13,368 nt of DNA, taken from assembly GCA_003447545.1 (NCBI GenBank), contig DLYX01000021.1, forward strand, positions 1-13,368, in the 5' to 3' direction. Within the stretch, counting starts at the first letter, position 1. Every line of letters begins with the position of its first letter. Origin of the DNA: Deltaproteobacteria bacterium. GTDB lineage: Bacteria; Desulfobacterota; Binatia; UBA12015. The notes under the pieces are model-generated. The model ran no database searches. It saw only the letters and a list, made by a program, of their open reading frames with translations, and was not told the DNA's origin. Shown one piece after another: positions 1 to 13,368 of this stretch. Made by a program: the position numbers and the translations under genes.

Positions 1-7
1 CTCGGAG

Positions 8-868
8 GTGGATCGGGAACTCAGGAGGATCCTCATCGCCCGTGAAGGACGTCCGACGGCGCTGACTCGGGCAATGCAGTATGCAGTGCTGGGTGCCGGC
101 AAGAGAATTCGTCCGATTCTGGCCATGGCGGCGGCTGAAGCCGTCGGTGGCGGACGTTTGCGGCGCCGTGCGTTGCGCCCGGGCTGTGCTGTGGAAATGA
201 TCCATGCGTACTCGCTGGCACACGATGATTTACCTGCCATGGATGACGACGACCTTCGTCGGGGCAAGCCCTCCTTGCACAAGAAATTCGACGAGGCGAC
301 AGCCATTCTGGCTGGCGACGCCTTGCTCACGGATGCGTTCGAGGTCCTGGTGCCTCGGGGTTCGCAGGGCCCCGAAGATACGGCTCGCAGCTTGCGTGTC
401 GTGACGGAAATCGCTCAAGGCGCCGGGAGTACCGGGATGGTGGCAGGGCAGGTCGCTGACATGGCCTCAGAGGGGATGAAGCGACCGACGCGGCGCACTG
501 TGGATGCGATTCATGCACGCAAGACAGGCGCATTGATTCGAGCTTCCGTCCGCGCGGGAGCCATCGTTGGCGGAGCAGATTCCGGGGAGCTGCGTGCTTT
601 GACGCGCTTTGCGGAGAGTTTCGGGTTGGCCTTTCAAATTGTGGATGATCTCCTGGACGAGACGGCCGATGTCGCCATACTCGGGAAGGCCGCCGGGGGG
701 GATCGTGCAAGAGGCAAGGCCACGTATCCGGCGATCCTCGGTCTTGAGGGCGCCCGTGCCGCCGCCGAAAAGGAGCGCAAGACAGCGCTGCGCGCGCTTG
801 CACGTTTCGGGCATCGTAGTGAGCCACTAGGAGCGATCCTTGACCGCGTCTTTGCGCGAGCGTCTTGA
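8..868 (+). CDS. ispA: Farnesyl/geranylgeranyl diphosphate synthase (polyprenyl synthetase), 5' end possibly cut
   Basis: Class I trans-prenyltransferase that condenses isopentenyl diphosphate with allylic diphosphates to make C15 or C20 chains for quinones, undecaprenol and other isoprenoids in the cytoplasm. In the 286 residues visible from the GTG at 8 I see the GKRIRP substrate-binding motif (about 31-36), the first Asp-rich motif DDLPAMD (73-79), a KTGALI segment (about 172-177), the second Asp-rich motif DDLLD (213-217) and the late GKATYP motif (236-241). The two residues between the Asp pair and the third Asp of the first motif fit the bacterial FPP/GGPP synthase group. The frame stays open through the left edge and family members usually carry about ten more N-terminal residues, so the true start probably lies outside the window. 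Its end overlaps tlyA by 29 bases. Product chain length cannot be decided from sequence. Confidence 0.93.
   Translation: MDRELRRILIAREGRPTALTRAMQYAVLGAGKRIRPILAMAAAEAVGGGRLRRRALRPGCAVEMIHAYSLAHDDLPAMDDDDLRRGKPSLHKKFDEATAILAGDALLTDAFEVLVPRGSQGPEDTARSLRVVTEIAQGAGSTGMVAGQVADMASEGMKRPTRRTVDAIHARKTGALIRASVRAGAIVGGADSGELRALTRFAESFGLAFQIVDDLLDETADVAILGKAAGGDRARGKATYPAILGLEGARAAAEKERKTALRALARFGHRSEPLGAILDRVFARAS
829..833 (+). promoter_or_regulatory. Shine-Dalgarno site deciding the tlyA TTG start
   Basis: AGGAG sits six bases before the TTG at 840, inside the end of ispA. It supports TTG as the real tlyA start and suggests translation coupled to ispA. Confidence 0.6.
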
Positions 869-1592
869 TACGCGGATCGTTGCGCTCGGCCTCGCAGAGA
901 GCCGGGAGCGCGCCAAGGGAGTGATTCTCGCTGGTCTGGTCAGCGTTGACGGCGAACGAATTACGCAAGCCGGGTTTCGCGTGCGCGAGGAACAGTCGAT
1001 CGTCGTTGCGGGTCCGGAGCATCCCTTTGTGTCTCGCGGGGGTGTGAAATTGGATGGCGCGCTTCGGGCATTTGATTTCTCCGTGCGTGAACGGGTCTGT
1101 TTCGATGTGGGAGCCTCAACGGGCGGCTTTACGGACTGCCTTTTGCAGCGGGGCGCCTCCATCGTCCATGCGGTAGATGTGGGCTACGGTCAGCTGGCAT
1201 GGAAGCTTCGGGAGGACTCTCGAGTCCTCGTGCGTGAGCGTACCAATGTGCGAACGCTCCCAGCGTCCTCTCTCGACCCGGTTCCCAGCCTTGCGGTCAT
1301 CGATGCATCCTTTATTTCCCTGCGATTGCTGCTCGCACCGACTCTCGCTCAACTCGGCGGATCGCGAGAGATTATTGCGCTGGTGAAGCCTCAATTCGAG
1401 GTCGGTCGCGAGAAGGTCGGCAAGGGCGGGCTGGTCAGCGATCCCGAAGTTCGACGCGAGGCGGTGGAAACGGTGTCCGAGGCCGCCGGGCAATTGGGTT
1501 TGCGGGTGGCGGGTATCAGCGATTCGACGCTCCCGGGTGCAAAAAAAGGCAACGTCGAGATCTTCCTGTACCTGCAGGCCTCTGCCAGTTGA
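840..1592 (+). CDS. tlyA: TlyA-family rRNA 2'-O-methyltransferase (S4 + FtsJ-like domains)
   Basis: Predicted S-adenosylmethionine-dependent methyltransferase that 2'-O-methylates ribosomal RNA; the Mycobacterium homologue modifies 16S and 23S rRNA and its loss gives capreomycin resistance. The 250 residues show an N-terminal S4 RNA-binding domain (about 6-65), the SRGGVKL linker (65-71), SAM motif I (FDVGASTGGF, 88-97) and an FtsJ/RrmJ-type catalytic fold. K70, D155 (in VIDASF), K183 (in LVKPQFE) and E240 (in GNVEIF) fit the K-D-K-E tetrad known for TlyA. Length is normal for the family. The start is TTG, backed by a well-placed AGGAG. The pairing with ispA in one transcript is common in bacteria with a 1-deoxyxylulose-5-phosphate pathway. 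The historic name haemolysin A is not supported as a function. Confidence 0.93.
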   Translation: MTASLRERLDTRIVALGLAESRERAKGVILAGLVSVDGERITQAGFRVREEQSIVVAGPEHPFVSRGGVKLDGALRAFDFSVRERVCFDVGASTGGFTDCLLQRGASIVHAVDVGYGQLAWKLREDSRVLVRERTNVRTLPASSLDPVPSLAVIDASFISLRLLLAPTLAQLGGSREIIALVKPQFEVGREKVGKGGLVSDPEVRREAVETVSEAAGQLGLRVAGISDSTLPGAKKGNVEIFLYLQASAS

Positions 1593-1625
1593 AAGAAAAG
1601 CGCCCCCCGGGTAACTAGGGACACC

Positions 1626-2069
1626 GTGGGATGGTTTACGACAGAGAAAAGCGCGGTCGCCGATGAACTGGAGGCTCTCTACAGCGAGTACCGTCGACTC
1701 GAGCGACAACTCGACGAGCATGCCGAAAAAGCGCCGTATCCGCAGGTCGCCACCCGACTCAAGGCGCTTTTGGTGAACGAGGGCGAGAATGCAGCCAGCG
1801 TGTCGGCTCGTTTGGCCGTGCTGGGGCGCTACGCCGAGTCGGATGGCACCGCTCGTCTTCGTGACGGTAGCAACTCATGGGAGCGCCTGATCGGGAATCT
1901 GGACGATTATCGGGCCTTGATTCGCACTCTGGGGCAACTCTTTGTCCGCTGGGATGATGAGAGCCCGGAGGACGCCCTGCTGGTTCGAGACCTGCGAGAG
2001 AGAGCGCAGTTCGGTCGGATGGAAATATCCGATATGATCTCCCGCGCCGATCCGCATGCCTTGAATTGA
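1626..2069 (+). CDS. Hypothetical helical protein between tlyA and rpoZ
   Basis: I do not recognise this gene. It encodes 147 mostly helix-forming residues with no signal peptide or membrane segment, rich in Glu, Arg, Leu and Ala. An early stretch (about 12-38) has the heptad-like spacing of a coiled coil or helical bundle, followed by a Pro-containing turn (APYPQVA, about 36-42), a second long helix and a third region around 95-140. The spacing of acidic residues and a single His weakly recalls ferritin-like or rubrerythrin-like bundles, but I cannot show a complete metal-binding set. The start is GTG with only a weak upstream AGGGA; 33 bases separate it from tlyA. Codon use matches its neighbours, so it is a native gene and probably co-transcribed with ispA-tlyA and rpoZ-rpoH. 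Confidence 0.7.
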   Translation: MGWFTTEKSAVADELEALYSEYRRLERQLDEHAEKAPYPQVATRLKALLVNEGENAASVSARLAVLGRYAESDGTARLRDGSNSWERLIGNLDDYRALIRTLGQLFVRWDDESPEDALLVRDLRERAQFGRMEISDMISRADPHALN

Positions 2070-2129
2070 TTGATTTCAGGGGGCTTTTTCTCTTTGCCGG
2101 GGCACTCGCGGTTCGTTAAGGTCTCCAAT

Positions 2130-2327
2130 ATGGCACGAGTTACCGTTGAAGATTGTCTTGAAAAGGTCCCTAGTCGTTTTGAGTTGGTCACTCTGGCGGC
2201 CCGAAGGGCAAAGCAGTTGCTCAAGGGTTCGCGTCCGCTGATCGATTCTTCGAACAAGGAAGTCGTCAGCGCACTTCGTGAGATCGCCGCGGGTAAGGTA
2301 ACCGCGGTGCGATCCGACGAGGACTGA
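2130..2327 (+). CDS. rpoZ: DNA-directed RNA polymerase omega subunit
   Basis: Small RNA polymerase subunit that helps fold and retain beta-prime; in many proteobacteria it also forms part of a ppGpp-binding site. From the ATG at 2130 it has 65 residues. The N-terminal half has the usual omega pattern: [13 protein letters not shown], then [15 protein letters not shown], a Gly-Ser turn, and a conserved helix [16 protein letters not shown]. The frame is open back to about 2070, but the residues before the ATG do not resemble omega, and the ATG has an AAGG-like site 9-12 bases upstream, so the shorter form is chosen. Guanylate kinase, the frequent upstream neighbour, is not here. The sigma-factor frame begins at or just after the rpoZ stop, so the two polymerase genes probably share a transcript. 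Confidence 0.9.
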
Positions 2328-2341
2328 TCAGGGTCTCGTTT

Positions 2342-2524
2342 CTGAAACCTCGCAACAAGCAATCCACACCGGAGAAGACCCCGGTCCTGGAAGCCGAGAT
2401 TCTTTCTCCCGAACCGGGGGAGAGCAAGGAGGTACCGCTCTCGACGGATGATGTCGAGGAAGCGATCCTTGTCTCGGAGGAGGAAGCAGGCTTTCCGAAT
2501 CCGACAGATGATCTCGTCGAGGTT
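2342..2524 (+). other. In-frame acidic N-terminal extension of the sigma factor (start codon uncertain)
   Basis: The frame of the sigma-factor gene stays open upstream of its first ordinary start codon (GTG 2525) back to a TAA at 2294-2296. The 61 codons from 2342 end mostly in G or C like the neighbouring genes and spell an acidic Glu/Pro/Ser-rich stretch. No ATG, GTG or TTG occurs in this frame between 2297 and 2524. The best candidate is CTG at 2342, read as M-KPRNKQ..., with AGGG at 2330-2333 eight bases before it; another CTG at 2324 overlaps the rpoZ stop. The GTG at 2525 has AGG only two bases upstream, too close for a good ribosome site. I infer that the extension is translated, probably from a rare start codon, unless a sequencing error hides an ordinary one. 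Confidence 0.55.
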
Positions 2525-3442
2525 GTGCCGCCCGAGCCCTCCACGGGTGGAGGGGGCGGGTCGGAAGGGTTGGTACCCGCCGATCCCCTCCAGCAATATC
2601 TCGCCGAAGTGCGGCGCCATCCGCTTCTGGATGCGGACGAGGAACATGCCCTGGCGGTTCTCTGGAAGGAGGACGGCGATCGAGAAGCGGCCCGACAATT
2701 GGTGACTGCCAATTTGCGGCTGGTCGTCTCCATCGCGCGTCGCTATGAGCGAGCCTTCAGAAACCTTCTCGATCTGGTGCAGGAAGGGAATATCGGTCTG
2801 ATGGAGGCCCTGAAGAATTTTGACCCGCACCGTGGCGTTCGTTTTCCGTCGTATGCCGTCTGGTGGATTCGCGCGTACGTGATTCGCTACGTGATGAATA
2901 ATTGGCGCCAAGTGAAACTTGGGACTACGCAGGCTCAGCGAAAGCTGTTTTTTAACCTGCAGAAGGAGAAAGACCGCCTGGAGCGGGAAGGTTTCTCTCC
3001 TGACCCGAAGCTGATTGCTGACCGTCTTGCGGTCAAGCCATCGGAAGTCATCGAGATGGACCAGCGTCTATCGGGCCGCGATCTGTCCGTCGATACGCCG
3101 GTGGGCGAGGGCGGCGAGTCCACGATGCTGGACTTCCTCGGCACTGGCTCCGAGGACGCCGAATCCAGTTATGCTGACGCGCAAGCCCGCCATCTCATTG
3201 CCACGAAGATCCGCGAGTTTGGCGATGAGCTGACCGGCAAGGACCACGAAATTTTTCACGAACGCATGATCGCCGAGGATCCGATGACCCTTCGTGAGTT
3301 GGGCGAACGTTACGAGATCAGCCGTGAGCGAGTCCGGCAGCTTGAAGATCGGATTCGAAAGCGTCTCCGACTTTTTCTGGTCGAGGCGATCCCTGATATC
3401 GCTGATGTTGAAGTGCGGCAGTCCATCACCGAGAGCTCCTGA
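2525..3442 (+). CDS. rpoH: RpoH-type (sigma-32 family) RNA polymerase sigma factor; conservative start
   Basis: Group 3 sigma-70-family factor that directs RNA polymerase to heat-shock-type promoters. From the GTG at 2525 (305 residues) I see a Gly-rich linker, a region 1.2-like segment (DPLQQYLAEV, 20-29), region 2 with the RLVVSIARRY and DLVQEGNIGLMEAL core (about 65-97) and the promoter-melting part RFPSYAVWWIRAYV (106-119). QRKLFFNLQ (138-146) is an RpoH box, the signature of sigma-32 proteins. Region 3 follows, then a region 4 helix-turn-helix with TLRELGERYEISRERVRQLE (255-274). The true protein is likely about 366 residues because the frame continues upstream to 2342. It directly follows rpoZ. 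Long acidic N-termini also occur on some deltaproteobacterial sigma-32-like factors, so assignment as the housekeeping heat-shock factor rather than a paralogue is not certain. Confidence 0.9.
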   Translation: MPPEPSTGGGGGSEGLVPADPLQQYLAEVRRHPLLDADEEHALAVLWKEDGDREAARQLVTANLRLVVSIARRYERAFRNLLDLVQEGNIGLMEALKNFDPHRGVRFPSYAVWWIRAYVIRYVMNNWRQVKLGTTQAQRKLFFNLQKEKDRLEREGFSPDPKLIADRLAVKPSEVIEMDQRLSGRDLSVDTPVGEGGESTMLDFLGTGSEDAESSYADAQARHLIATKIREFGDELTGKDHEIFHERMIAEDPMTLRELGERYEISRERVRQLEDRIRKRLRLFLVEAIPDIADVEVRQSITESS

Positions 3443-3462
3443 CCTTCGCCCATCATCGCGAC

Positions 3463-3479
3463 GAAGCGAGGCGGGCTTC
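3463..3479. terminator. Short hairpin between convergent rpoH and hydrolase genes
   Basis: GAAGC and GCTTC form a 5-bp stem around a 7-base loop in the 42-base gap where the rpoH and metallo-hydrolase transcripts meet. There is no clear T-run on either side, so a bidirectional terminator is only a possibility. Confidence 0.25.
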
Positions 3480-3484
3480 AGGGC

Positions 3485-4168
3485 TCAATATCCCATGGCC
3501 GAGAGAAAGTCCTGCAGTTTACCAAAGCGCATATAGGGATTTGTGCGGACTTCCTGTCCAATGGTCGACGTCGTCTGGGGAGAATAGTTGTGGCCCGGAA
3601 AGAGCACGGTAGGCTCCGGAAGCTTCTTGAGTGTGTCCTGGAGCGAGCGGTATAGATCCTCCGGGTTGCTGCCGGGGAGATCGACCCGTCCGCAGGCGCC
3701 AATGAACAGGGTGTCTCCGGAGACTAAATGGCCGTCGACCAGAAAGCACTGGGATCCCGGGGTATGGCCCGGCGTATGCAGGAACTTGATTTCGATATCG
3801 CCGGCCATGCAGGTGTCGCCGCCTTCGGTGGCGACCATATCGGAGTCCGAGAGTTCGGCTACCTTGTGGGCATACGGGACCTCGCTCTTGTGCAGGTGGA
3901 TCTTGACCGACTTTTTGGCGATCAGCTCGGCGGCACCGTCGATTTCCATCCCCATCATCGAACCTCCCATATGATCGGGATGAAAATGGGTGACCAGACC
4001 TGCGGTGATTTTCATGTCGTCGGCCTCGGCAATATTGCAGATGGCGTCGATATCCCACGCGGCATCAATCACGACGCACTCATGTTTCTCGCGGTCCCCC
4101 ACAAGATAAGCAAAGTTTTGCATCGGGCCGATTTCAATTTGTTTCAGGTACAAGCGATCTTCAGGCAT
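3485..4168 (-). CDS. Metallo-beta-lactamase-fold hydrolase (glyoxalase II-like)
   Basis: Cytoplasmic metal-dependent hydrolase of the glyoxalase II / YcbL / ETHE1 branch of the metallo-beta-lactamase fold. The 227 residues carry the full set of likely metal ligands: THFHPDH (H61, H63, D65, H66), H135 in HTPGHTPG, D152 in SGDTLF and H193 in FPGHNY. The GACGRVDLPG stretch (157-166) is typical of the small glyoxalase II-like group. The long C-terminal glutathione-binding domain of classical glyoxalase II is missing, so the substrate is open: a thioester, a persulfide or an unknown metabolite. The ATG at 4168 has GGAG six bases upstream and overlaps the end of the adenosyltransferase gene by 8 bases, so the two are translationally linked. 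It converges on rpoH. Confidence 0.88.
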   Translation of the reverse strand: MPEDRLYLKQIEIGPMQNFAYLVGDREKHECVVIDAAWDIDAICNIAEADDMKITAGLVTHFHPDHMGGSMMGMEIDGAAELIAKKSVKIHLHKSEVPYAHKVAELSDSDMVATEGGDTCMAGDIEIKFLHTPGHTPGSQCFLVDGHLVSGDTLFIGACGRVDLPGSNPEDLYRSLQDTLKKLPEPTVLFPGHNYSPQTTSTIGQEVRTNPYMRFGKLQDFLSAMGY

Positions 4169-4790
4169 TGCCCTCTCCGTTATCCGATTTTCCGAGCCGC
4201 AGACCTTTTTCCCAAAGGATTTCGGGCGTCCCGGTGTGATGTGATATCCACCGCGCCAGAACGAAGAGGAGGTCCGAGAGTCGGTTGAGATACTTCAGAA
4301 CCTCCGGGCTTGCGGTTTCTTCGCGGTGCAGTCGGAGGACGTCTCGCTCAGCCCGACGACAAACGGTTCGTGCAAGATGGAGACTGGCAGCGACGCGTCC
4401 ACCAGCGGGCAGAATGAATGATTTCAGATCTTCAAGGTCCTCCTGACAACGATCGATGGTCTGTTCGAGTGCGAGAACTTCTGCCTCGCCGATCGTGATC
4501 ATGCCCGGATACGTTTCCCCGGCCGGTGTGGCGAGTTCGCTTCCCAGGTCGAAGAGTTCGTTCTGCAGGCCCTCGAGGATGTCTCCGAGCTGGCGAGCCG
4601 CTTCGACGCCTTTCCCGACCGAGATTTCGTCGTTGGCGGCGCGGGCGACACCGAGGACGGAATTAAGTTCGTCGACCGTACCATAGGCTTCGACTCGGAG
4701 AGAATCCTTGTGTGTGCTGGCGCCCCCGACCAGTCGAGTCTCACCGGCGTCGCCGGTTCGGGTGTATACGCGATTGATCCGAATTGCCAT
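4161..4790 (-). CDS. pduO: ATP:cob(I)alamin adenosyltransferase, PduO/MMAB type
   Basis: Transfers the 5'-deoxyadenosyl group of ATP to reduced cobalamin, giving adenosylcobalamin, the cofactor of methylmalonyl-CoA mutase, diol dehydratase and class II ribonucleotide reductase. The 209 residues match the PduO-type trimeric family: N-terminal YTRTGDAGETRLVGG (9-23) for ATP binding, RVEAYGTVDELNSVLG (32-47), the FILPAGG turn, and the C-terminal block ARTVCRRAERDV followed by YLNRLSDLLFVLAR. The ATG at 4790 has GGAAGG six bases upstream. It lies 20 bases after the PAS-HisKA-REC gene and overlaps the metallo-hydrolase gene downstream. No cobalamin riboswitch is visible and no B12-dependent enzyme is in the window, so the enzyme it serves is unknown. 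It is not a CobA/CobO-type enzyme. Confidence 0.93.
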   Translation of the reverse strand: MAIRINRVYTRTGDAGETRLVGGASTHKDSLRVEAYGTVDELNSVLGVARAANDEISVGKGVEAARQLGDILEGLQNELFDLGSELATPAGETYPGMITIGEAEVLALEQTIDRCQEDLEDLKSFILPAGGRVAASLHLARTVCRRAERDVLRLHREETASPEVLKYLNRLSDLLFVLARWISHHTGTPEILWEKGLRLGKSDNGEGNA

Positions 4791-4810
4791 TTTCTACCTT
4801 CCGAGGTCTT

Positions 4811-5929
4811 TCAGGACCTTCCGCACTGGTCTTTCACAATGCCTACCAGTTTGGCGGGTTCTACTGGTTTCTTGAACAAGACGCCCTCGAGACCTTCGAG
4901 TTTGGAGCGCTTGATGATGTGATCTCGATCATAGACGAAAGCCGTCATCAGCACGACAGGGGTCTCGGAGTGATTTTCCTGGACGTGAAGGAAAAGCTCA
5001 TAGCCGTCGAGGCCGGGCATGACCACGTCGCTGAGGACGCAATCGAACTTCTTCTCCTCAAGGTGCTGACGCGCTTCGAGCCCATCGGCCGCCGTAATAA
5101 CGTCGCAGCCTTCCAATTGCAGAATGGCGCGAACGGATTGGCAAACCGAAAGGTCGTCGTCCGCAACCAGCACACGCAGGCCGCTGAGCGAACCTTCCGT
5201 GGCGGAATGTTTGGCACCAAGGGGTAAACGGGCAGGCCCGTCTTGAGCGACGGCGGGTCCGAGGTCCGTCATCCTGGCACCGTGCAGATATTCCACGGTC
5301 CCGTATTCCTCCGAGCCCGCCATTTCCGAGAGCCGGTTCACGATATTCTGAATCTTCGCCAGCGACGTCTCGATCGAGTCGATTCGTTCCTGCTCGATAC
5401 AGGTGTCGTCTTCACCGGCGAGGCGGCGCACATCTTTCTCCAGCATCACCAGATTGTTCAGGATCGCGGCGAGGGGATTGTTCATTTCGTGCGCGACCGT
5501 CACGGCGATCTCTCGAAGGGTATCGAGTTGGTCCTGTTTGTGGATCTCGCGGAGATCTTTGGCGAAGCCGATCGAACCCAATTCCCGACCGGCCGAGTCG
5601 AAGATCAAGGTTCCGGAAATAGCGACCTCGATTTCCTCGCCGGACCGGGCACGCAGGCGGGTCTGGAAATTGCGGACCTTCCCGGCAGCGTCCGTCGCCG
5701 GATCGCGCATGGCCTGCATCAGCTGCCGTGCTTCGTCGATCGATGGGTAGATCAACTTGACGGAATGACCTGCGACCTCCTCGGAGGTGTAGCCCAGAGA
5801 GGTTCGCGCACCTTCATTATAGAAGATGATCTCGCCGCGGCGATCGACACCGATAATGATGTCGGGGGAATCCTCGAGCAAGCGCTCGAAGTAGATCAGT
5901 GGTAGTGTCGGCATGGCAATTGTCGCCAA
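4811..5929 (-). CDS. PAS-HisKA-REC signalling protein lacking an ATPase domain
   Basis: Two-component signalling protein of 372 residues. Domains in order: a PAS sensor (about 11-125, with the DIIIGVDRRGEIIFYNEGA strand pattern and a final IGFAKDLRE); a HisKA dimerisation/phosphoacceptor helix pair (about 135-205) with the H-box around H147 in AHEMNNPLAAI; a linker of about 45 residues; and a response-regulator receiver (about 250-370) with acidic D257-D258, phosphoacceptor D301 in LSDVVMPGLDG, T329 and K354. The N, G1, F and G2 boxes of a HATPase_c domain are absent between HisKA and REC, so it cannot autophosphorylate as a normal kinase. I infer a phosphorelay intermediate or partner of another kinase. 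No membrane segment is seen. The start could be TTG at 5929 or, equally well, ATG at 5914 five codons in; neither has a strong ribosome site. The adenosyltransferase follows in the same direction. Confidence 0.85.
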   Translation of the reverse strand: MATIAMPTLPLIYFERLLEDSPDIIIGVDRRGEIIFYNEGARTSLGYTSEEVAGHSVKLIYPSIDEARQLMQAMRDPATDAAGKVRNFQTRLRARSGEEIEVAISGTLIFDSAGRELGSIGFAKDLREIHKQDQLDTLREIAVTVAHEMNNPLAAILNNLVMLEKDVRRLAGEDDTCIEQERIDSIETSLAKIQNIVNRLSEMAGSEEYGTVEYLHGARMTDLGPAVAQDGPARLPLGAKHSATEGSLSGLRVLVADDDLSVCQSVRAILQLEGCDVITAADGLEARQHLEEKKFDCVLSDVVMPGLDGYELFLHVQENHSETPVVLMTAFVYDRDHIIKRSKLEGLEGVLFKKPVEPAKLVGIVKDQCGRS

Positions 5930-5955
5930 ATCTCATGCTAGGAATTCGAAGGCAT

Positions 5956-6378
5956 ATGGTCAAGAAGCATAATCCGTTTGGCGTTCGGGGACTTTTGGTC
6001 CTTTCCCTTCTACTAGCCTCGAGCTGTTACTTGTTTCGTTATGAGGCCGTGATGGAAACGCACCTGACCCTGATGGAGCAATATAGCACTAAATTGCAAT
6101 ATATGGCGGATAACGGCTTGGAAGTTTCCGGCCCTGATTGGGTCGAATTCGAATACCCGGGCGAAAGAGCGGAAGAGTTTGTCCGGATCGTGAGCCCAAG
6201 CTTCGCTGACCAGGAATCGCTCTCTGCCTTCGCCCGCTCTCTCGAACTCTACCAGCTCCTCGTCGCGAGTCCGGAGATTCTACGAGGCGCGAACGCGCCC
6301 CAAAAGGTCGCTGATTTACGGGTGGCGCTTCTGGAAGCAATTCGTGTGAATCGGGAATTGCTGGCTCGCGAGAACTAG
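5956..6378 (+). CDS. Small exported hypothetical protein, possible lipoprotein
   Basis: I do not recognise this 140-residue protein. From ATG 5956 it begins with a basic stretch (MVKKHNPFGVRG), then a hydrophobic segment LLVLSLLLASSC. The Cys at about residue 24 sits where a lipobox Cys would be, so it is either lipid-anchored or held by a single N-terminal membrane helix. The rest is predicted soluble and helical, with an acidic middle and a Leu-rich C-terminal part. AAGG lies three bases before the ATG, which is rather close; an in-frame ATG at 5935 would add seven residues but has no ribosome site. It diverges from the PAS-HisKA-REC gene across about 40 bases, so their promoters must be nearby or overlap, and it converges on folK with a 21-base gap. 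Confidence 0.7.
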   Translation: MVKKHNPFGVRGLLVLSLLLASSCYLFRYEAVMETHLTLMEQYSTKLQYMADNGLEVSGPDWVEFEYPGERAEEFVRIVSPSFADQESLSAFARSLELYQLLVASPEILRGANAPQKVADLRVALLEAIRVNRELLAREN

Positions 6379-6399
6379 ATCCCGGCCCCGAAGCCCTTG

Positions 6400-6897
6400 T
6401 CAGCGAGGGGGCAGGAGGGTCACTTTCTTGTCATCGAGGCTCGAGGCGAGGAGCTGGGAGATGGTTTGCCCGCTTTCCGGATGGCTCTGCTGGGGGGCGA
6501 TCTCGGCCAGCGGCAAGAGTACGAATCTCCGCTGGGTCAAACGCGGGTGCGGCAGTTTGAGCTTGCGTCCATTGAGGACGACGTTGTCATAAAAAAGCAG
6601 GTCCAGGTCGATAATGCGGGAGCCGAACTTTTTCCCTTTCACGCGTCGGCGGCCCATTGCCGTCTCGATGGCCAGCATTTCCTTGAGGAGATCCTGCGGG
6701 CTCAGCTCCGTATCGACCTCGAAAGCAGCGTTATAGAACCAGGTCTTGGCATCGCCATGTGGTTCGCTTTCGTAGAGAGAGGAGTTGCGGATCAGGCGTG
6801 TGCCCTCCAATTCCCCTGTCTTTTCAGTTCCTTCGGCGATATTTGCTCGTCGGTCTCCGAGGTTGGATCCGACTCCAATAAGGGCTCGATGAGGCAT
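6400..6897 (-). CDS. folK: 6-hydroxymethyl-7,8-dihydropterin pyrophosphokinase
   Basis: Transfers pyrophosphate from ATP to 6-hydroxymethyl-7,8-dihydropterin, the step before dihydropteroate synthase in folate synthesis. The 165 residues show the HPPK signatures: IGVGSNLGDR (7-16), LYESEPHG (41-48), FYNAAFEVDT (54-63), the metal-binding RIIDLDLLFYDN (94-105; D97 and D99 are the likely Mg ligands) and LPHPRLTQRRFVLLPLAEI (115-133). The ATG at 6897 is chosen over an open-frame ATG at 6990 because homology begins there and AAGGAA lies five bases upstream. It follows dapB after 130 bases that hold an inverted repeat, so it may be read through from the dap operon or have its own promoter. Confidence 0.94.
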   Translation of the reverse strand: MPHRALIGVGSNLGDRRANIAEGTEKTGELEGTRLIRNSSLYESEPHGDAKTWFYNAAFEVDTELSPQDLLKEMLAIETAMGRRRVKGKKFGSRIIDLDLLFYDNVVLNGRKLKLPHPRLTQRRFVLLPLAEIAPQQSHPESGQTISQLLASSLDDKKVTLLPPR

Positions 6898-6902
6898 ACG
6901 GG

Positions 6903-6908
6903 TTCCTT
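6903..6908 (-). promoter_or_regulatory. Shine-Dalgarno site deciding the folK start
   Basis: On the minus strand AAGGAA lies five bases before the ATG at 6897. It selects this start rather than the longer open frame reaching 6990. Confidence 0.6.
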
Positions 6909-6928
6909 GTCCACGCCACGATTGGTCA

Positions 6929-6978
6929 TCGATTGCTCTGCGGTCGCAGCGGCCCTTTGCCGGCGATCGAGCAATCGA
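6929..6978. repeat. 10-bp perfect inverted repeat between dapB and folK
   Basis: TCGATTGCTC (6929-6938) pairs perfectly with GAGCAATCGA (6969-6978) across a 30-base loop. The loop contains a smaller TGCG/CGCA hairpin at 6939-6948, and a separate GGCCA/TGGCC pair lies nearby at about 6989-7008. No T-run follows on the minus strand, so an intrinsic terminator is unlikely; an operator, an RNA structure in the folK leader or a processing site would fit. The function is unknown. Confidence 0.5.
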
Positions 6979-7027
6979 CCCGAAGGCCAATTAGCGCACT
7001 GGCCGACCAAAGCCAAACCCGGGAGTC

Positions 7028-7843
7028 TCAGAGCTGCAGTCCGAGTACGTCCTGCATTCGGTAGGCGCCCGGGGCCTGGTCCGCCAGCCAATGGGCCGCG
7101 CGGAGCGCCCCCGAGGCAAAGGCATCACGGCTGCCGGCCTTATGGGTCAGCTCCAGGCGTTCGCCGGTGCCGAAAAAAAACACCGTATGGTCTCCCACGA
7201 CGTCACCGCCGCGGAGCGCCATGACGCCGATCTCGTCAGATTTTCGCTCGCCGACCATCCCCTGACGGCCGAAAACGCCCCATTCTTTCAAGTCTGCATC
7301 GCGTCCCCGGGTGGCCGCTTCCGCCAGGGTGAGAGCGGTTCCGGAAGGTGCGTCTTTTTTGAGGCGGTGATGGGTTTCCATCACTTCCATATCAAAGGAC
7401 GGCCCCAGTTTGCGCGCAACCATCTCCACCACCTCCGTCAGAAGGGTGACGCCAACGCTCATATTGGTTGCCTGCAGGAGGGGTATCTTTTCTGCGATAC
7501 GATCCAGTTCCTCCTGCTGTTCGGGATCGAACCCGGTCGTGCCCAGGACTACCGGGCACCCGGCTTCCGCGGCAACTCGCAGATGTTCGAGTGAAGGTTC
7601 GGGCCAGCTGAATTCGATGAGCACTCGAGGAGCAATCAGGGTGGATGCCAGATTCGCCTCGACGCACACGCCATTCGCAGTTGTTCCGGCCAGAGTTCCG
7701 GAGTCCTTGCCGAGTTGTTCATGGCCAGGGGCTTCCAGTGCCCCGGCGACAACCAGTTCCGGCATTGCCTCGGCGAGGCCTATGAGAGTCTTTCCCATGC
7801 GCCCGGTTGCGCCCGATACGACGATCGGCGTGGCTGCGCTCAA
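7028..7843 (-). CDS. dapB: 4-hydroxy-tetrahydrodipicolinate reductase
   Basis: NAD(P)H-dependent reductase that turns the DapA product into tetrahydrodipicolinate in the diaminopimelate/lysine pathway. The 271 residues carry the Rossmann-fold nucleotide motif GATGRMG (11-17), the GTTGF loop (101-105), ATNMSVGV (125-132) and the active-site block HHRLKKDAPSGTA (158-170), with H158 the likely catalytic His and K162/K163 the substrate Lys. The C-terminal DVLGLQL is also typical. Length is normal. The start is TTG at 7843, whose bases overlap the dapA stop in a 4-base TTGA, which explains the weak start codon: translation is probably handed over from dapA. No frameshift or missing residue is seen. 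Confidence 0.95.
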   Translation of the reverse strand: MSAATPIVVSGATGRMGKTLIGLAEAMPELVVAGALEAPGHEQLGKDSGTLAGTTANGVCVEANLASTLIAPRVLIEFSWPEPSLEHLRVAAEAGCPVVLGTTGFDPEQQEELDRIAEKIPLLQATNMSVGVTLLTEVVEMVARKLGPSFDMEVMETHHRLKKDAPSGTALTLAEAATRGRDADLKEWGVFGRQGMVGERKSDEIGVMALRGGDVVGDHTVFFFGTGERLELTHKAGSRDAFASGALRAAHWLADQAPGAYRMQDVLGLQL

Positions 7844-8748
7844 GGTGTCGCTCCGGCGCTGGCCACACCGGCTCTTTCCATCGCGGACAGCAGGATCGCT
7901 CGGGGCTCGGCGGACATGGTCAGCAGCGGCAGTCGCAGCTCATCCTCGCATAGCCCCAACATCGCGACCGCAGCCTTTACCGGAATCGGATTGGTTTCGA
8001 GGAACAGGGCTCGCATCAGAGGGAGCAGCCGATAATGAAGCGCGCTTGCCTCTGCTGTGCGGCCCTCAAGGGCGAGTTCGGTGAGTTCTGCGATCTCGCG
8101 CGGTGCAACGTTTGCCGTGGTCGAGATCAGGCCAACAGCGCCCAGAGAAATCATCGGCAAGGTCAGCGGATCATCGCCTGAGAGCACGGCTAGTTTGTCA
8201 CCGCAGGCGGCCACGACGTCCATGACCCGGTCCAACGATCCTGTAGCTTCCTTGACCGCTACGATATTATCGATGTCGGACAAACGCAGCAGCGTGCTGG
8301 TTTCAATCGTGGACCCGGTTCGGCCCGGGATATTATAGGTAATCAGAGGAATCTGGACGGCCTCGGCGACGGCGCGGTAATGCTCGTAGATCCCGTCCTG
8401 CGTCGGCTTGTTGTAATAGGGTGAAATGAGCAGGGCACCGTCGGCGCCGGCCGACTCGGCAGCCCGCGTCAAATCGATCGCTTCCGCGGTTGCGTTAGAG
8501 CCGGTTCCGGCGATGACAGAAACACGCCCGTCGGCCTTGGCGACGACGGCCTCGATGACCTGAGCATGCTCGTCATGGGTCAGCGTGGCGGACTCCCCCG
8601 TGGACCCACAGGGTACGATAGCCTTCTGTCCGGCGACAATCTGACGCTCGACCAGCACATCCAGTGCGGTGAAATCGACTTTGCCGTCCCGAAAGGGCGT
8701 GACAACCGCGACCATGGATCCAGTAAATGGACATTTCGTTTGACTCAT
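7840..8748 (-). CDS. dapA: 4-hydroxy-tetrahydrodipicolinate synthase
   Basis: Class I aldolase-family enzyme that condenses pyruvate with aspartate semialdehyde, the first committed step to lysine and diaminopimelate. The 302 residues show FTGSMVAVVTPF near the start (8-19), the pyruvate-binding CGSTGESATL (47-56), ISPYYNKPTQ (108-117), the catalytic Tyr in YNIPGRTG (Y138, R143) and the Schiff-base Lys K166 in AVKEATG. The ATG at 8748 is chosen over longer upstream frames: it adds only about seven residues to the common family start, has GGAAAGA seven bases upstream, and overlaps the dapF stop in ATGA. Codon use is that of the left block. It forms the middle of dapF-dapA-dapB. Confidence 0.95.
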   Translation of the reverse strand: MSQTKCPFTGSMVAVVTPFRDGKVDFTALDVLVERQIVAGQKAIVPCGSTGESATLTHDEHAQVIEAVVAKADGRVSVIAGTGSNATAEAIDLTRAAESAGADGALLISPYYNKPTQDGIYEHYRAVAEAVQIPLITYNIPGRTGSTIETSTLLRLSDIDNIVAVKEATGSLDRVMDVVAACGDKLAVLSGDDPLTLPMISLGAVGLISTTANVAPREIAELTELALEGRTAEASALHYRLLPLMRALFLETNPIPVKAAVAMLGLCEDELRLPLLTMSAEPRAILLSAMERAGVASAGATP

Positions 8749-9593
8749 AAGATTATCTTTCCGGAGTAAACCTCGGTCGCGCCACCCGTCATCAGGACGT
8801 GATTGTCCTCGGCGCGCCAATGGATGTCGAGTGAGCCGCCAAGCAGTTCGATGCGAACTTCCCGGCGAGATTTTTCGGTCAACACGGCTGCGACGGCAGC
8901 GGCGCAAGCGCCGGTACCACAAGCATGGGTTTCACCCGAGCCTCGTTCCCAAACTCTGAAACGAAGATTGCCAGTCGGTTCGTCACCGACGACTTCGACA
9001 AACTCGACGTTGATCCGGTTGGGAAACATCGGATGTGACTCCAGCACAGGCCCGAGTTCGTGAACCGGTGCGCTTGCGGTTGAGGGTACAAAAAGAATGC
9101 AATGGGGATTCCCCATCGACACGCAGGTGACCGCGTATTCGTGACCCTGGACCTCGAGCGGAGCTGCGACAAGCGGGCCGGCGGCGTCCATGGGGAGGTC
9201 TGCCGGGCGAAGCGAAGGCTCGCCCATATCGACAGTGACCATGTCGATTTCGTCAGCTCGAGGACCTGAGAGAGTCAGGTTTTTGATGCCTGCGTCGGTC
9301 TCGACCGTCAGTTGGCGGCTGTTCACCAAGCCGTGGTCGTAGCCGAACTTGCCGACGCAGCGGATCCCGTTTCCGCACATCTCGCCGCGGCTGCCATCCG
9401 CGTTGAACATCCGCATCCGGGCATGGTTCGTCGGATCCTCGGGTGGGTCGATCAGGATCAACCCGTCGCTTCCGATCCCGCGATGTCGATCGCTGACCAG
9501 CCGGCTCACGCCGGCCGGGTCGTCGACGTTCGTCAGCCGACCGTCGACGAAGACGTAGTCGTTTCCCAGGCCGTGCATCTTGACGAATCGCAT
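8745..9593 (-). CDS. dapF: Diaminopimelate epimerase (composition changes inside the gene)
   Basis: Interconverts LL- and meso-diaminopimelate using two active-site Cys residues; meso-DAP feeds peptidoglycan and lysine. The 282 residues are intact: KMHGLGNDYV (5-14), DRHRGIGSDGL (35-45), the first catalytic Cys C73 in EMCGNGIRCVGKFG (71-84), SMGNPHC (159-165) and the second Cys C225 in ETHACGTGACAAAV. By my count 14 of the first 101 codons end in A or T, against 35 of the next 100, so the 5' third follows the right-hand block and the rest the left-hand block; the change is near base 9290. The ATG at 9593 lies 4 bases after the M48 gene stop with no strong ribosome site, and the stop overlaps the dapA start. 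The function call is firm, but the gene may be a hybrid of two dapF genes or an assembly chimera. Confidence 0.92.
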   Translation of the reverse strand: MRFVKMHGLGNDYVFVDGRLTNVDDPAGVSRLVSDRHRGIGSDGLILIDPPEDPTNHARMRMFNADGSRGEMCGNGIRCVGKFGYDHGLVNSRQLTVETDAGIKNLTLSGPRADEIDMVTVDMGEPSLRPADLPMDAAGPLVAAPLEVQGHEYAVTCVSMGNPHCILFVPSTASAPVHELGPVLESHPMFPNRINVEFVEVVGDEPTGNLRFRVWERGSGETHACGTGACAAAVAAVLTEKSRREVRIELLGGSLDIHWRAEDNHVLMTGGATEVYSGKIIL

Positions 9594-9597
9594 GCCG

Positions 9598-11100
9598 TCA
9601 TTCTCGCAAGGAGAACGCGACTTCGGGCGTTCCGAATGCGGGATCCTCGAAAATCGAGGGTTCCGCCGACGTGACCAGGTACCACCGCCCCACCACCAGC
9701 ACGATCGCCACCACCGAGGCGATCTCGATCGTCCGGACCACGCGGTCGATCGGCAGTCGATCGATCGGTCGGTGGATCAGCCCCAGCAGATGACGCTGTC
9801 GCGAGGCGATCGAACCATGTCGCCAGGTGAATCGCTTCAGGTCGACACCGTTCACGCCGGCCACCGCGGTCAACGCGGATCGCATCGCATCGACGCCCTC
9901 GACCGAGACCGTCCCGAGCGGACGATCCTCGGCGTCGACCGACATCCGAACCGCCGCGAACGCATCGGCCTGTCGCTCGAAACGACGGGAGATCCAACCG
10001 AAGCCGACCAGCGTTCCCGCGAGGACCACCGCGGTCGCGGCGATGTCCATCCACCAGAGATCGGAGACGATCGCCGCTTCGGCGCCGCCCGCCTCGATGC
10101 GTGCGGAGCGGACCTCGAGGAGGATCGGGTCGATCGCCTCCGCCAGCACCATGCTCATCGCGACGAGCCCGACGCCCATCCAGGGCATGTGCCGTCGCCG
10201 CGCGTGGGCGAGTTCATGGGCCATCACCGCCATGACCTGCTCCCGACGAAGCGTCTCGAGCAGGCCGTCGGTGAGCAGGACCCAGCGGAGTCGGCCGACG
10301 AACCCGGTCACCGCGGCGTTGACCAACCGTCCCCCGGTGGGCCAGAGCAGGATGTTCCGGACCCGGACCCCGGCACGATCGCACATGGATTCGAGCGTCG
10401 TCCGGACCTCGCCCTCGGGCAGCGGGCGGGCGCCGAGCAGCCGGACCACGAGGGCCGGCGCCAGGATCGCGATGGGAATCACCAGGGACGCCGGCATCGC
10501 GGTGGCGAGCCAGCCCGGCGGTTGATACGACGACCGGGCGATCAACGCCTCGAAGACGTCCCCGGTCACCGCGAGCAGCCCGAGCGGAACCAGCAGGATC
10601 AGAACCTGGGTCCGAAACTGCATCGCCACCCAGGCGCTCCGCGACGGTGCCGCCTGCACGGGAAGTCCTTCGTCCAACCGGCGGATCAGGGTCGCGTCAC
10701 GGGCCCGGACCTCGAAGGGATGAAAGATCCACCACGCGGCGACGATCGCGAACAACGCGGGCGCCATCGTCAGGGCCTCGTCGATGACGAGGAAGTCGCC
10801 CACGTACCCTCGAACCGCCTCTCGAAAACCGGTGCCGAGGACGCCCGCCGCGACGATTCCCACCGCCGCCCACTGGACGAACCGAAGACTTCGCGCCGCC
10901 CGCTCGAACTCCCGGAGGGGTCGATCCCCGGCGAGTCGACGTTGAAGCACTCGCGCGTTCAATGCCGCCACGATCAGCAGAATCCCGATTCCACCCAGCA
11001 CCAGACCGATGCTCGCGAGGGGCTCGAGCCGGGCTGGAAACCCGCCCTCCGGTGCGGGAAGCAGCACCACGGCGGCGAGGATGATGAGCAGGACCTGCAC
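9598..11100 (-). CDS. Multi-pass membrane M48-family zinc metallopeptidase
   Basis: Predicted integral-membrane gluzincin related to HtpX, Ste24 and BlaR1-type M48 peptidases. From the GTG at 11100 it has 500 residues. Hydrophobic helices lie at about 2-15, 31-48, 76-90, 105-125, 163-180, 203-224, 307-320, 352-370 and 458-473. The core has NAAVTGFVGRLRWVLLTDGLL (261-281), the zinc motif HELAH (H295, E296, H299), the third-ligand motif RRFERQADAFA with E375, and a WRHGSIASRQRHL stretch (426-438) like the M48 HPS...R block. The frame is open far upstream, but the residues before 11100 are the shadow of the preceding gene. TTG at about 11168 is the alternative start. It lies 40 bases after the JAMM-like lipoprotein gene and ends 4 bases before dapF. 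Role unknown: membrane-protein quality control or signal processing would fit. Confidence 0.85.
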   Translation of the reverse strand: MQVLLIILAAVVLLPAPEGGFPARLEPLASIGLVLGGIGILLIVAALNARVLQRRLAGDRPLREFERAARSLRFVQWAAVGIVAAGVLGTGFREAVRGYVGDFLVIDEALTMAPALFAIVAAWWIFHPFEVRARDATLIRRLDEGLPVQAAPSRSAWVAMQFRTQVLILLVPLGLLAVTGDVFEALIARSSYQPPGWLATAMPASLVIPIAILAPALVVRLLGARPLPEGEVRTTLESMCDRAGVRVRNILLWPTGGRLVNAAVTGFVGRLRWVLLTDGLLETLRREQVMAVMAHELAHARRRHMPWMGVGLVAMSMVLAEAIDPILLEVRSARIEAGGAEAAIVSDLWWMDIAATAVVLAGTLVGFGWISRRFERQADAFAAVRMSVDAEDRPLGTVSVEGVDAMRSALTAVAGVNGVDLKRFTWRHGSIASRQRHLLGLIHRPIDRLPIDRVVRTIEIASVVAIVLVVGRWYLVTSAEPSIFEDPAFGTPEVAFSLRE

Positions 11101-11140
11101 GCGATTGGTTCCGGGTCGGGACCGACGACCGGGGACGAAC

Positions 11141-12676
11141 TCAGTCCGGCCGCTGGAAGGTTCCAAGATCCACCACCACCCCGCCGTGGCGGTAGAAGTC
11201 GGCGTTGATGGTGCGGCTGTCGATGAACGTGAACACGAGACAGTTGGCCCGCGTCGCCTCGGCGTAGGCGAAGTCGCCCATGTGCGGGCCGGCGTAGTCC
11301 CGGTTGTCGTATTCCTGGGCGTGATTGTGGAAGTGGAAGACGCCCGTGTAGGCCGCGTCGAACATCTCCTGCGTCGCCTCGAAGCGATTGTCTCCGCGTC
11401 GAAGCCGCGGCTTGAATTCCAGCACCTCGATCCGGCCCTGCTCGTCCACCGAGATGACCCCGCCGAACTCGGTGCTTTCGTCGAGCAGGTCACGTTCCGC
11501 GTAGCGGAAGACGTGACCACGAACCGCATCGATCTCCAGCGATTCGATCGCGATCCTCATCGCCAGCAGGTCGCCCCAGTCGAGCTTTCGCCGAACCTCG
11601 CGAAGTCGTTCGGAGTGGGTGTCGTTCCACCCGGTGAAGTTCGCCGAGTAGAGACGCCTGCCATCGACGTCGACGTCCTTCCGGAGCTCGTCGTAGAGCG
11701 TGGCCTCGTCCTGATCGAGGAGCGTGGGATCGAGACGCATCGCCGCGACCAGCACGCCGAGGTCGCGAAGTTCCAGGGTCGACCGACGCGACTCGGGCAC
11801 CCGCTCACACGCCGCGGCCGCCGCGTCGAGGAAGCCGGCGTTCTCCGGTCGGCAGAGGGTTCGGGCCCAGATGATCTCCTCGCGATTGGCGGGGATGATC
11901 CCGAGTCGATCCGAGATCTCCCGGAGATCCCGGAACATGCCGTCGCGCGGCGAGACGTCGCTGCTCGTGAGCAGTTCCACCACGCGGTCGCGTCGTCCCT
12001 CCGCCACGAGCAGCTCCCAGCACCGCGCTCGAAGGTTGGCGGCGACCACCGGATCGGAATCCAGCATCACCTGCACCAGGACGTCGGCGAGTCGGTCCTC
12101 CCCGTACATCTCGATCAACGCCAGTCGCTCCGGCCGGTCCTTCGGATCCTCCACCCAGTTCGGCATCGGTCGCGCCCACGCCCGGATGAGCGTCGGCGTC
12201 ATGTCGATCCAGGGCTCGGCCGCGATGATCTCGCACAACCGTTCCCGCCATTGGATCGCGTCGATCTTCGGCATCTGGATCTCCAGAAGCCGCTGGAGCC
12301 CTTCGGGATCGATGGTCTTCATCCGGTCGTAGGCCATCTCCCGGACGTCGACGGTGTAGCCGTCGGCGATGATCATTCGCTTGAGGGCTCGACTCGTGGC
12401 ATCGGGCGTCGTGGTGGCCTCCAGCACCCGCAACGCGGCGGCGTGGCGGCCGGAGGTCTCCTCCGGGTCGGCGAGGACCGCGACCGGGTCCTCGATCGAT
12501 CGCGGAGCGCATCCGGGCCAGGCCACGAGCAGGCCGAGCACCACGATGGCCAGCGTCGAACGGATGGCGGAATTTCGATTCGATCCCCGTCGGGGTCCGT
12601 TCGGATCAAAGTGACGAAGCATTCTCGGGATCACGTCGCTCAGGCCTCCATGCCCTGCAGGAACGAATCGCGTCAT
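11141..12676 (-). CDS. Lipoprotein-like protein with C-terminal JAMM/MPN-like metalloprotease signature
   Basis: A 511-residue protein I cannot assign to a named family. A basic N-terminus leads to a hydrophobic segment (about 41-53) ending in WPGC at 53-56, so an exported, possibly lipid-anchored protein is likely, although the lipobox is not classical. Residues 60-330 are mostly helical, with Arg/Leu/Ala-rich segments that may be HEAT-like repeats. The C-terminal part (about 370-511) looks like a JAMM domain: E403 in STEFGGVI, then FHFHNH (H448, H450, H452), then GPHMGD with D468, matching E...HxH...(S)xxD with the usual Ser replaced by His and a longer loop. ATG 12676 is the start used; ATG 12622 would also keep the signal segment. 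The M48 gene follows in the same direction. The JAMM reading is an inference from motif order. Confidence 0.75.
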   Translation of the reverse strand: MTRFVPAGHGGLSDVIPRMLRHFDPNGPRRGSNRNSAIRSTLAIVVLGLLVAWPGCAPRSIEDPVAVLADPEETSGRHAAALRVLEATTTPDATSRALKRMIIADGYTVDVREMAYDRMKTIDPEGLQRLLEIQMPKIDAIQWRERLCEIIAAEPWIDMTPTLIRAWARPMPNWVEDPKDRPERLALIEMYGEDRLADVLVQVMLDSDPVVAANLRARCWELLVAEGRRDRVVELLTSSDVSPRDGMFRDLREISDRLGIIPANREEIIWARTLCRPENAGFLDAAAAACERVPESRRSTLELRDLGVLVAAMRLDPTLLDQDEATLYDELRKDVDVDGRRLYSANFTGWNDTHSERLREVRRKLDWGDLLAMRIAIESLEIDAVRGHVFRYAERDLLDESTEFGGVISVDEQGRIEVLEFKPRLRRGDNRFEATQEMFDAAYTGVFHFHNHAQEYDNRDYAGPHMGDFAYAEATRANCLVFTFIDSRTINADFYRHGGVVVDLGTFQRPD

Positions 12677-12725
12677 CCGCCACCACCAGAAGGTCGGTGA
12701 TTCGACGGAGGCCGCCTCATGACTC

Positions 12726-12731
12726 TATCAT
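12726..12731 (+). promoter_or_regulatory. Possible -10 element for the nfu gene
   Basis: TATCAT matches the sigma-70 -10 consensus at five of six positions within otherwise GC-rich DNA in the divergent gap between the JAMM-like gene and nfu. TTCGAC at 12701-12706 is a poor -35 at 19 bases spacing. This is a weak call based on one hexamer. Confidence 0.3.
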
Positions 12732-12804
12732 CGTGCTCGTCGACCGCGGTTCAGGACCTGCCGCCACCGACCTGATTCCGGGTCTCTCGAGGACGTTTTC
12801 ACCA

Positions 12805-13053
12805 ATGACCGATTCGCCATCCGAATCCCTTCAGTCCCGAGTCGAGGCGGTGCTCGACCTCATCCGGCCGGCGGTGCAGGAAGATGGCGGCGACTTCGAA
12901 CTCCTCGAAATCTCCGAGGAGGGGGTCGTCACGATCCGCTTTCTCGGGGCCTGCATCGGTTGTCCCTCGAGTGAAATGACGCTCCGCGACGGCATCGCGC
13001 GGAATCTGCGCAGCAGAGTTCCCGAGGTGACGGACGTTGTCGCCTCCGAATGA
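12805..13053 (+). CDS. NifU C-terminal domain (Nfu) iron-sulfur cluster carrier
   Basis: Small scaffold or carrier protein that holds a [4Fe-4S] cluster between two subunits and passes it to target enzymes. From the ATG at 12805 it has 82 residues: a first helix ending in LDLIRPAVQEDGGDFELLEI (about 17-36), the strand pair VVTIRFLGAC, the cluster ligands C50 and C53 in GACIGCPSS, and the closing helix with IPEV-like RVPEVTDV (71-78). It consists of the Nfu domain alone, with no IscU-like or A-type domain, as in many bacteria with SUF systems. GAGGA lies 11 bases before the ATG. The frame is open upstream to 12697, but those residues do not resemble the family. It is divergent from the JAMM-like gene. 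Confidence 0.93.
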   Translation: MTDSPSESLQSRVEAVLDLIRPAVQEDGGDFELLEISEEGVVTIRFLGACIGCPSSEMTLRDGIARNLRSRVPEVTDVVASE

Positions 13054-13219
13054 GGTCGTGGGCGACGCTTAAATCTACCGATACCGCCTTCTGTAATCGC
13101 CGTCGTTCGGCTAGGCTGTAGTCCGCCGAATGATCTCGGCGACCACCCTCCACCGGCCGAGACACCGAGGTCCCGGTCGAGCACTTTCGAGAGTGGTACG
13201 CAGGCAGGAGGACCTGAAC
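13054..13219. other. Intergenic region ahead of csrA
   Basis: These 166 bases hold no gene I can support. The first part (about 13065-13110) is less GC-rich than its surroundings, including CTTAAATCTACC and CTGTAATC, and TAGGCT near 13113-13118 could be a -10 hexamer without a convincing -35. Promoter activity for csrA is likely somewhere here but I cannot place it. Confidence 0.35.
13206..13212 (+). promoter_or_regulatory. Strong Shine-Dalgarno of csrA, possible CsrA autoregulatory site
   Basis: AGGAGGA ends seven bases before the csrA ATG. It contains overlapping GGA triplets, the core CsrA recognition element, so CsrA could bind its own leader as is known in other bacteria. The autoregulation part is inference. 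Confidence 0.5.
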
Positions 13220-13368
13220 ATGCTCGTCATCACCCGCCGCGAGGGCGAGGAAGTCATCATCGGAGATCCCGCGTCACCACTTGGTGTCGTCCGGGTCGCC
13301 GTGATCAAGGGCGACCGTGTCCGACTCGCATTCGAGTTCCCGCGTGAAGTCGCGGTGCACCGTCGTGA
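13220..13368 (+). CDS. csrA: Carbon storage regulator CsrA, 3' end cut by the window
   Basis: RNA-binding translational regulator that covers GGA motifs in mRNA leaders; the dimer swaps beta-strands. The 49 visible residues begin MLVITRREGEEVIIGD and continue through VRVAVIKGDRVRLAF to PREVAVHRR; the last two bases, GA, open a Glu or Asp codon, consistent with the usual VHR(R)E. The key RNA-contact elements, the N-terminal LVITRR strand and the VAVHRR stretch, are present. Compared with the common form there are about four extra residues between IGD and the third strand (PASPLG), a difference I associate with planctomycete-like CsrA proteins but cannot verify here. The start is secure: AGGAGGA is seven bases upstream. 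The C-terminal helix lies outside the window. Confidence 0.93.
   Translation, partial: MLVITRREGEEVIIGDPASPLGVVRVAVIKGDRVRLAFEFPREVAVHRR

Follow-up and report, generated by a model that had tools for sequence, protein, structure and literature searches.

A hybrid dapF gene in a Binatia contig, almost certainly the product of an assembly error

Background

Mosaic genes formed by natural homologous recombination carry one breakpoint in a conserved stretch and keep their reading frame. The dapF gene of the window analysed here (13,368 bp, one whole contig of the source assembly, G000) was found to resemble such genes in its single breakpoint within a conserved stretch and in its kept frame. It differs from them in that two phyla are involved, in that no return to host DNA was seen and in that the native locus is present in a genome of the same species.

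Chimeric contigs arising by misassembly are described in a passage of the GUNC paper as a known yet relatively rare error (PMC8201837), and a benchmark excerpt puts the number of chimeric contigs per genome at 22.15 with one short-read assembler and at 2.63 with another (PMC11261854). The window is like the chimeric metagenome contigs treated in that GUNC passage (PMC8201837) in that fragments of two sources share one contig; here, however, a conserved gene holds the join and keeps its frame, so that no broken gene betrays it.

The contig very probably arose by a misjoin across phyla at the NADGSRGEMCGNGIRC codons, in which DNA of two unrelated bacteria has been glued together within dapF, and the hybrid-looking dapF is almost certainly an assembly error. 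The preliminary description had proposed that two genomes are joined in this gene, by assembly or by recombination. DNA identity, gene order and site patterns agree in placing a two-genome join there, and of the two versions that of assembly is much better supported. Both parents, the position of the join and an intact dapF in each lineage were identified. The contig is a well-caught error and no biological novelty.

The source assembly and the left part of the contig

The source assembly is fragmented, with 652 contigs and a completeness of 63.48%. Its reported contamination is only 1.42%, which counts against a misjoin. The left part of the window (1..9395) belongs to the genome of the binned organism. 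A search of the class yielded a genome of the same species as this left parent (G497; 98% complete, 60 contigs), and its DNA match to the window consists of a single piece from 1 to 9488. Over positions 1-9395 the identity is 99.638%, with 34 mismatches and no gap, and these 34 differences in 9395 bases mark G497 as a different strain from the window's organism. Within 9101-9600 the sole difference to the left of 9396 is at 9133, and from 9396 on the sequences diverge. Beyond the join G497 has its own dapF start, followed by lysA, a short gene, argH and argG (names given from reading the translations). An M48 match was absent from G497 at E ≤ 0.001, as was any DNA match to the right block of the window except for about 46 bases at 85%.

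The family sample comprised 12 other genomes, of which 10 had a dapF match and provided 10 family loci. All 10 have dapA (66–71% identity) and dapB after dapF, with lysA (58–65% identity to that of G497) lying divergently before it. The window carries dapA (7840..8748, minus strand; TIGR00674, 358.1 bits) adjoining dapF and dapB (7028..7843, minus strand; TIGR00036, 286 bits) adjoining dapA, the arrangement found in 10/10 family loci.

Members of the M48 family were found in 178 of 395 genomes of the left organism's phylum at E ≤ 1e-10 and in 80 of 148 genomes of its class at E ≤ 0.001; both counts include the genome of the window. Besides the window, the best M48 match has 39% identity in the phylum listing and an E-value of 1.8e-13 in the class listing. 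Within the flanks examined, dapF was beside M48 in none of the 29 phylum M48 loci.

The planctomycete block

The right parent, to which positions 9396..13368 (the contig end) belong, is a planctomycete (Phycisphaerae-like). This block is collinear over its whole length with planctomycete contigs at identities of 86.3% (L064) and 85.9% (L070), while a third locus (L068) matches it at 88.5% over 1216 bases. When named genomes were scanned with the M48 protein, seven loci came up, each with a planctomycete title (Phycisphaerae, Phycisphaerales or Phycisphaera in five cases, Planctomycetia in one and Planctomycetaceae in one). The three closest loci (L064, L068 and L070) all differ from one another in the class or family name that they carry, which leaves the exact lineage uncertain.

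The M48 family peptidase gene of the window (9598..11112, minus strand; PF01435, 59.6 bits) has a start which is not settled, the frame being open to 11529. It lies before dapF in all seven planctomycete loci, and dapF is full-length there, these loci being from related species of which none is the parent itself. The gene named JAMM-like in the preliminary description (11141..12676, minus strand), which had no Pfam or NCBIfam match, precedes M48, and nfu (12805..13053, plus strand; PF01106, 88.2 bits) follows the same placement as in the window, in six of the seven loci; the seventh (L068) is cut off there. The block closes with a csrA-like start (13220..13368, plus strand), an open frame which was named by reading and is truncated where the contig stops. 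Up to position 13368 the genes keep the order and codon use of planctomycetes, and no second boundary was seen.

The hybrid DapF protein

The dapF frame (8745..9593, minus strand) encodes a hybrid protein of 282 aa. Its initial description as full length and in frame was borne out by a TIGR00652 score of 282.2 bits against a cut-off of 114.65, with the match extending over residues 1-281 and over positions 1-269 of the 270 in the model. In this coverage of the model from end to end the hybrid frame is like DapF (TIGR00652, PF01678). It differs from DapF in that its first 63 residues and residues 80-282 stem from different phyla.

Alignment, site counts and trees were made with 34 chosen sequences, namely the window's protein, 13 and 17 from two best-120 protein listings, and three of the seven planctomycete loci. 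The site sets contrasted nine near planctomycete with six near Binatia-side DapF proteins. In residues 1-63, 27 sites were planctomycete-only and none was Binatia-only; residues 64-79 had no site exclusive to either group, and residues 80-282 had 1 planctomycete-only and 104 Binatia-only sites together with 2 found in neither. On this pattern codons 1-66 (9396..9593, minus strand) are of planctomycete origin. Codons 67-282 with the stop (8745..9395, minus strand) are of left-parent origin, residues 64-282 differing from G497 at only 1 of 219 positions.

Identities follow the same division. Residues 1-63 share 84–95% identity with the nine nearest planctomycete proteins and 54–62% with the 13 Binatia-side proteins, whereas for residues 80-282 the corresponding values are 39–42% and 54–97%. 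Three more distant planctomycetes, at 57–59% to residues 1-63, are no closer than the Binatia-side proteins, and only the near planctomycetes are closer. The separate comparison of the two DapF parts, which had been suggested as a check, thus assigns residues 1-63 to the planctomycetes and residues 80-282 to the Binatia side. The tree of residues 1-63 places the window among planctomycetes, grouped with P0121 (support 0.90), while that of residues 80-282 makes it the sister of P0001 (support 0.998), an intact left-lineage DapF from another assembly. The native DapF of G497 differs from P0001 at 7 of 282 positions. Among the best 120 of 7999 proteins scored, P0001, the intact Binatia form, ranked first at 88% with no hybrid copy above it, and the junction is absent from G497, the one other genome of the species examined.

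Position of the join

The comparison with G497 sets the right limit of the join at 9395/9396, and codon 80 (9356-9354) specifies the first residue exclusive to the Binatia side; the join therefore lies in the interval 9357..9396, of about 40 bases. The switch had initially been placed about 60 bases past the conserved motif, and in this respect the preliminary description has to be corrected, as the join lies within the NADGSRGEMCGNGIRC codons. The three nearest planctomycetes depart from the window as early as base 9393, the third position of codon 67, so that the right end of the interval is the more likely position.

At the protein level residues 64-79 suit both groups at 16/16 positions, and at the DNA level 57–60 of 78 bases around the join are alike. 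The longest exact DNA runs at the join between G497 and the three nearest planctomycetes are of 12, 17 and 8 bases, although these are relatives and the true right parent may share more. Runs of 8–17 identical bases are short for an assembler's overlap, which counts against a misjoin.

Composition switch within dapF

The earlier hand counts of codons ending in A or T (14 among codons 1-101 and 35 among codons 102-201) proved to be exact, and 34 of codons 202-282 end in this way. The reported switch near base 9290 is real: a change-point scan of dapF placed it after codon 100, at base 9293, and this was reached by 0/2000 shuffles in one run and by 1/2000 in another. For the JAMM-like gene, M48, dapF, dapA, dapB and folK together the best single change point was again 9293 (likelihood ratio 85.6), with a 6-unit support interval over these six minus-strand genes of 9344-9263. 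The join interval lies outside this support interval, about 100 bases from 9293.

The resemblance of the dapF 5' part to the genes on its right, and of the remainder to the left block, was likewise upheld. The GC3 of dapF codons 1-100 is 0.87, compared with 0.84 for the JAMM-like gene, 0.83 for M48 and 0.76 for nfu, while that of the rest of dapF is 0.61 and that of the 11 genes to the left of dapF is 0.60–0.71. The codons ACT, ACA, TCT, TCA, CTA and GTA are not used at all in the JAMM-like gene, M48 and nfu together, and are used 12, 15, 15, 7, 6 and 13 times, respectively, in nine left-block genes.

The native dapF of the left species (L077, 9120-10016) was found to have a weaker, mild third-position switch after the same codon 100, which 51/2000 shuffles reached. 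Base 9293 was considered as the join position and dropped, since the native G497 gene switches at the same codon. Codons ending in A or T in stretches 1-66, 67-101, 102-201 and 202-282 number 18, 3, 35 and 34 in G497 and 11, 3, 35 and 34 in the window. The apparent join is thus displaced by about 100 bases, since the 35 codons next to the true one on its left mostly end in G or C in the native gene too (3/35 end in A or T in both). Given the native switch at codon 100, some of the signal inside the gene thus comes from the left organism's ordinary sequence, and the foreign 5' end has sharpened it. Planctomycete dapF is without such a switch: codons ending in A or T number 20, 19 and 20 among codons 1-101, and 15, 20 and 16 among codons 102-201, for L064, L068 and L070, respectively. 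Composition alone can accordingly misplace a join, in this case by about 100 bases.

Origin of the join

We infer that the join originated in the data rather than in a cell. One contig from the binned organism (1 to ~9395) and one from a planctomycete (~9396 to 13368) would have been joined inside the NADGSRGEMCGNGIRC codons, a stretch common to both DapF proteins, and the agent may have been the assembler or a chimeric library molecule. The joined frame is open and the protein full length because both dapF genes run in the same direction and the motif fixes the register. A misjoin is favoured because two phyla meet at a single join in a stretch common to both, with each side collinear with its own lineage to the contig ends, and also because the same-species G497 has the native locus, no hybrid copy was listed and the source assembly is fragmented.

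It is very unlikely that recombination took place naturally in one strain of the left organism, with a crossover in the conserved dapF motif through which 4 kb or more of planctomycete DNA took the place of the dapF start and the sequence beyond it. There is correspondingly little chance that a living Binatia-like strain acquired the first quarter of its DapF, along with a flank of at least 4 kb, from a planctomycete through crossing over within the conserved DapF motif. The intact dapF frame, which scores well above the DapF cut-off, speaks for recombination, although the crossover would have had to occur between DNA as far apart as the 57–60 like bases in 78 around the join indicate. G497 is another strain (34 differences in 9395 bases) and need not carry a recent transfer, but a hybrid copy was also absent from the best 120 of the 7999 proteins scored. 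The native other side of the locus (dapF start, lysA, argH and argG) was not found on another contig of the source assembly. This speaks for recombination and counts against a misjoin, though incompleteness explains the absence; on the other hand, the lysA, argH and argG that a transfer would have displaced were not found in that assembly. The 3' part of a planctomycete dapF was also sought in it and not found. Planctomycete gene order and codon use up to the contig end, with no second boundary seen, argue against a transferred segment, but as planctomycete DNA reaches position 13368, such a segment could be longer than the part in the window. The alternative that there is no join, the window being one unbroken native locus whose codon use is uneven within dapF, has a negligible probability: the weaker switch of the native G497 gene after the same codon (51/2000 shuffles) would agree with it, but from 9396 the DNA no longer follows the same-species genome and instead resembles that of planctomycetes at 86–88%, and the two DapF parts fall in different groups.

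A misjoin of this kind serves as a warning, as a join in frame at a conserved motif gives a full-length protein that is accepted by family models. It puts a planctomycete M48, JAMM-like gene, nfu and csrA-like start into the genome of another phylum. Claims of gene transfer or gene neighbourhood made from this contig should end at 9395.

Other features of the two parts

Five class loci outside the organism's own family (L023, L018, L029, L024 and L028) have a weaker lysA-like match near dapF, at 28–38% identity. Two open frames of the left block, 1626-2069 (147 aa) and 5899-6378 (159 aa), had no Pfam match at E ≤ 0.001. By reading, the translation of 4811-5929 appears to combine a PAS part with a histidine-kinase phosphoacceptor-like stretch and with a receiver domain; an ATPase domain is not obvious between them. 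Among the planctomycete relatives some isolate names presumably point to sea water. The JAMM-like gene occurs at 72–90% identity before M48 and dapF in L064-L067, L069 and L070, which makes this a conserved planctomycete neighbourhood.
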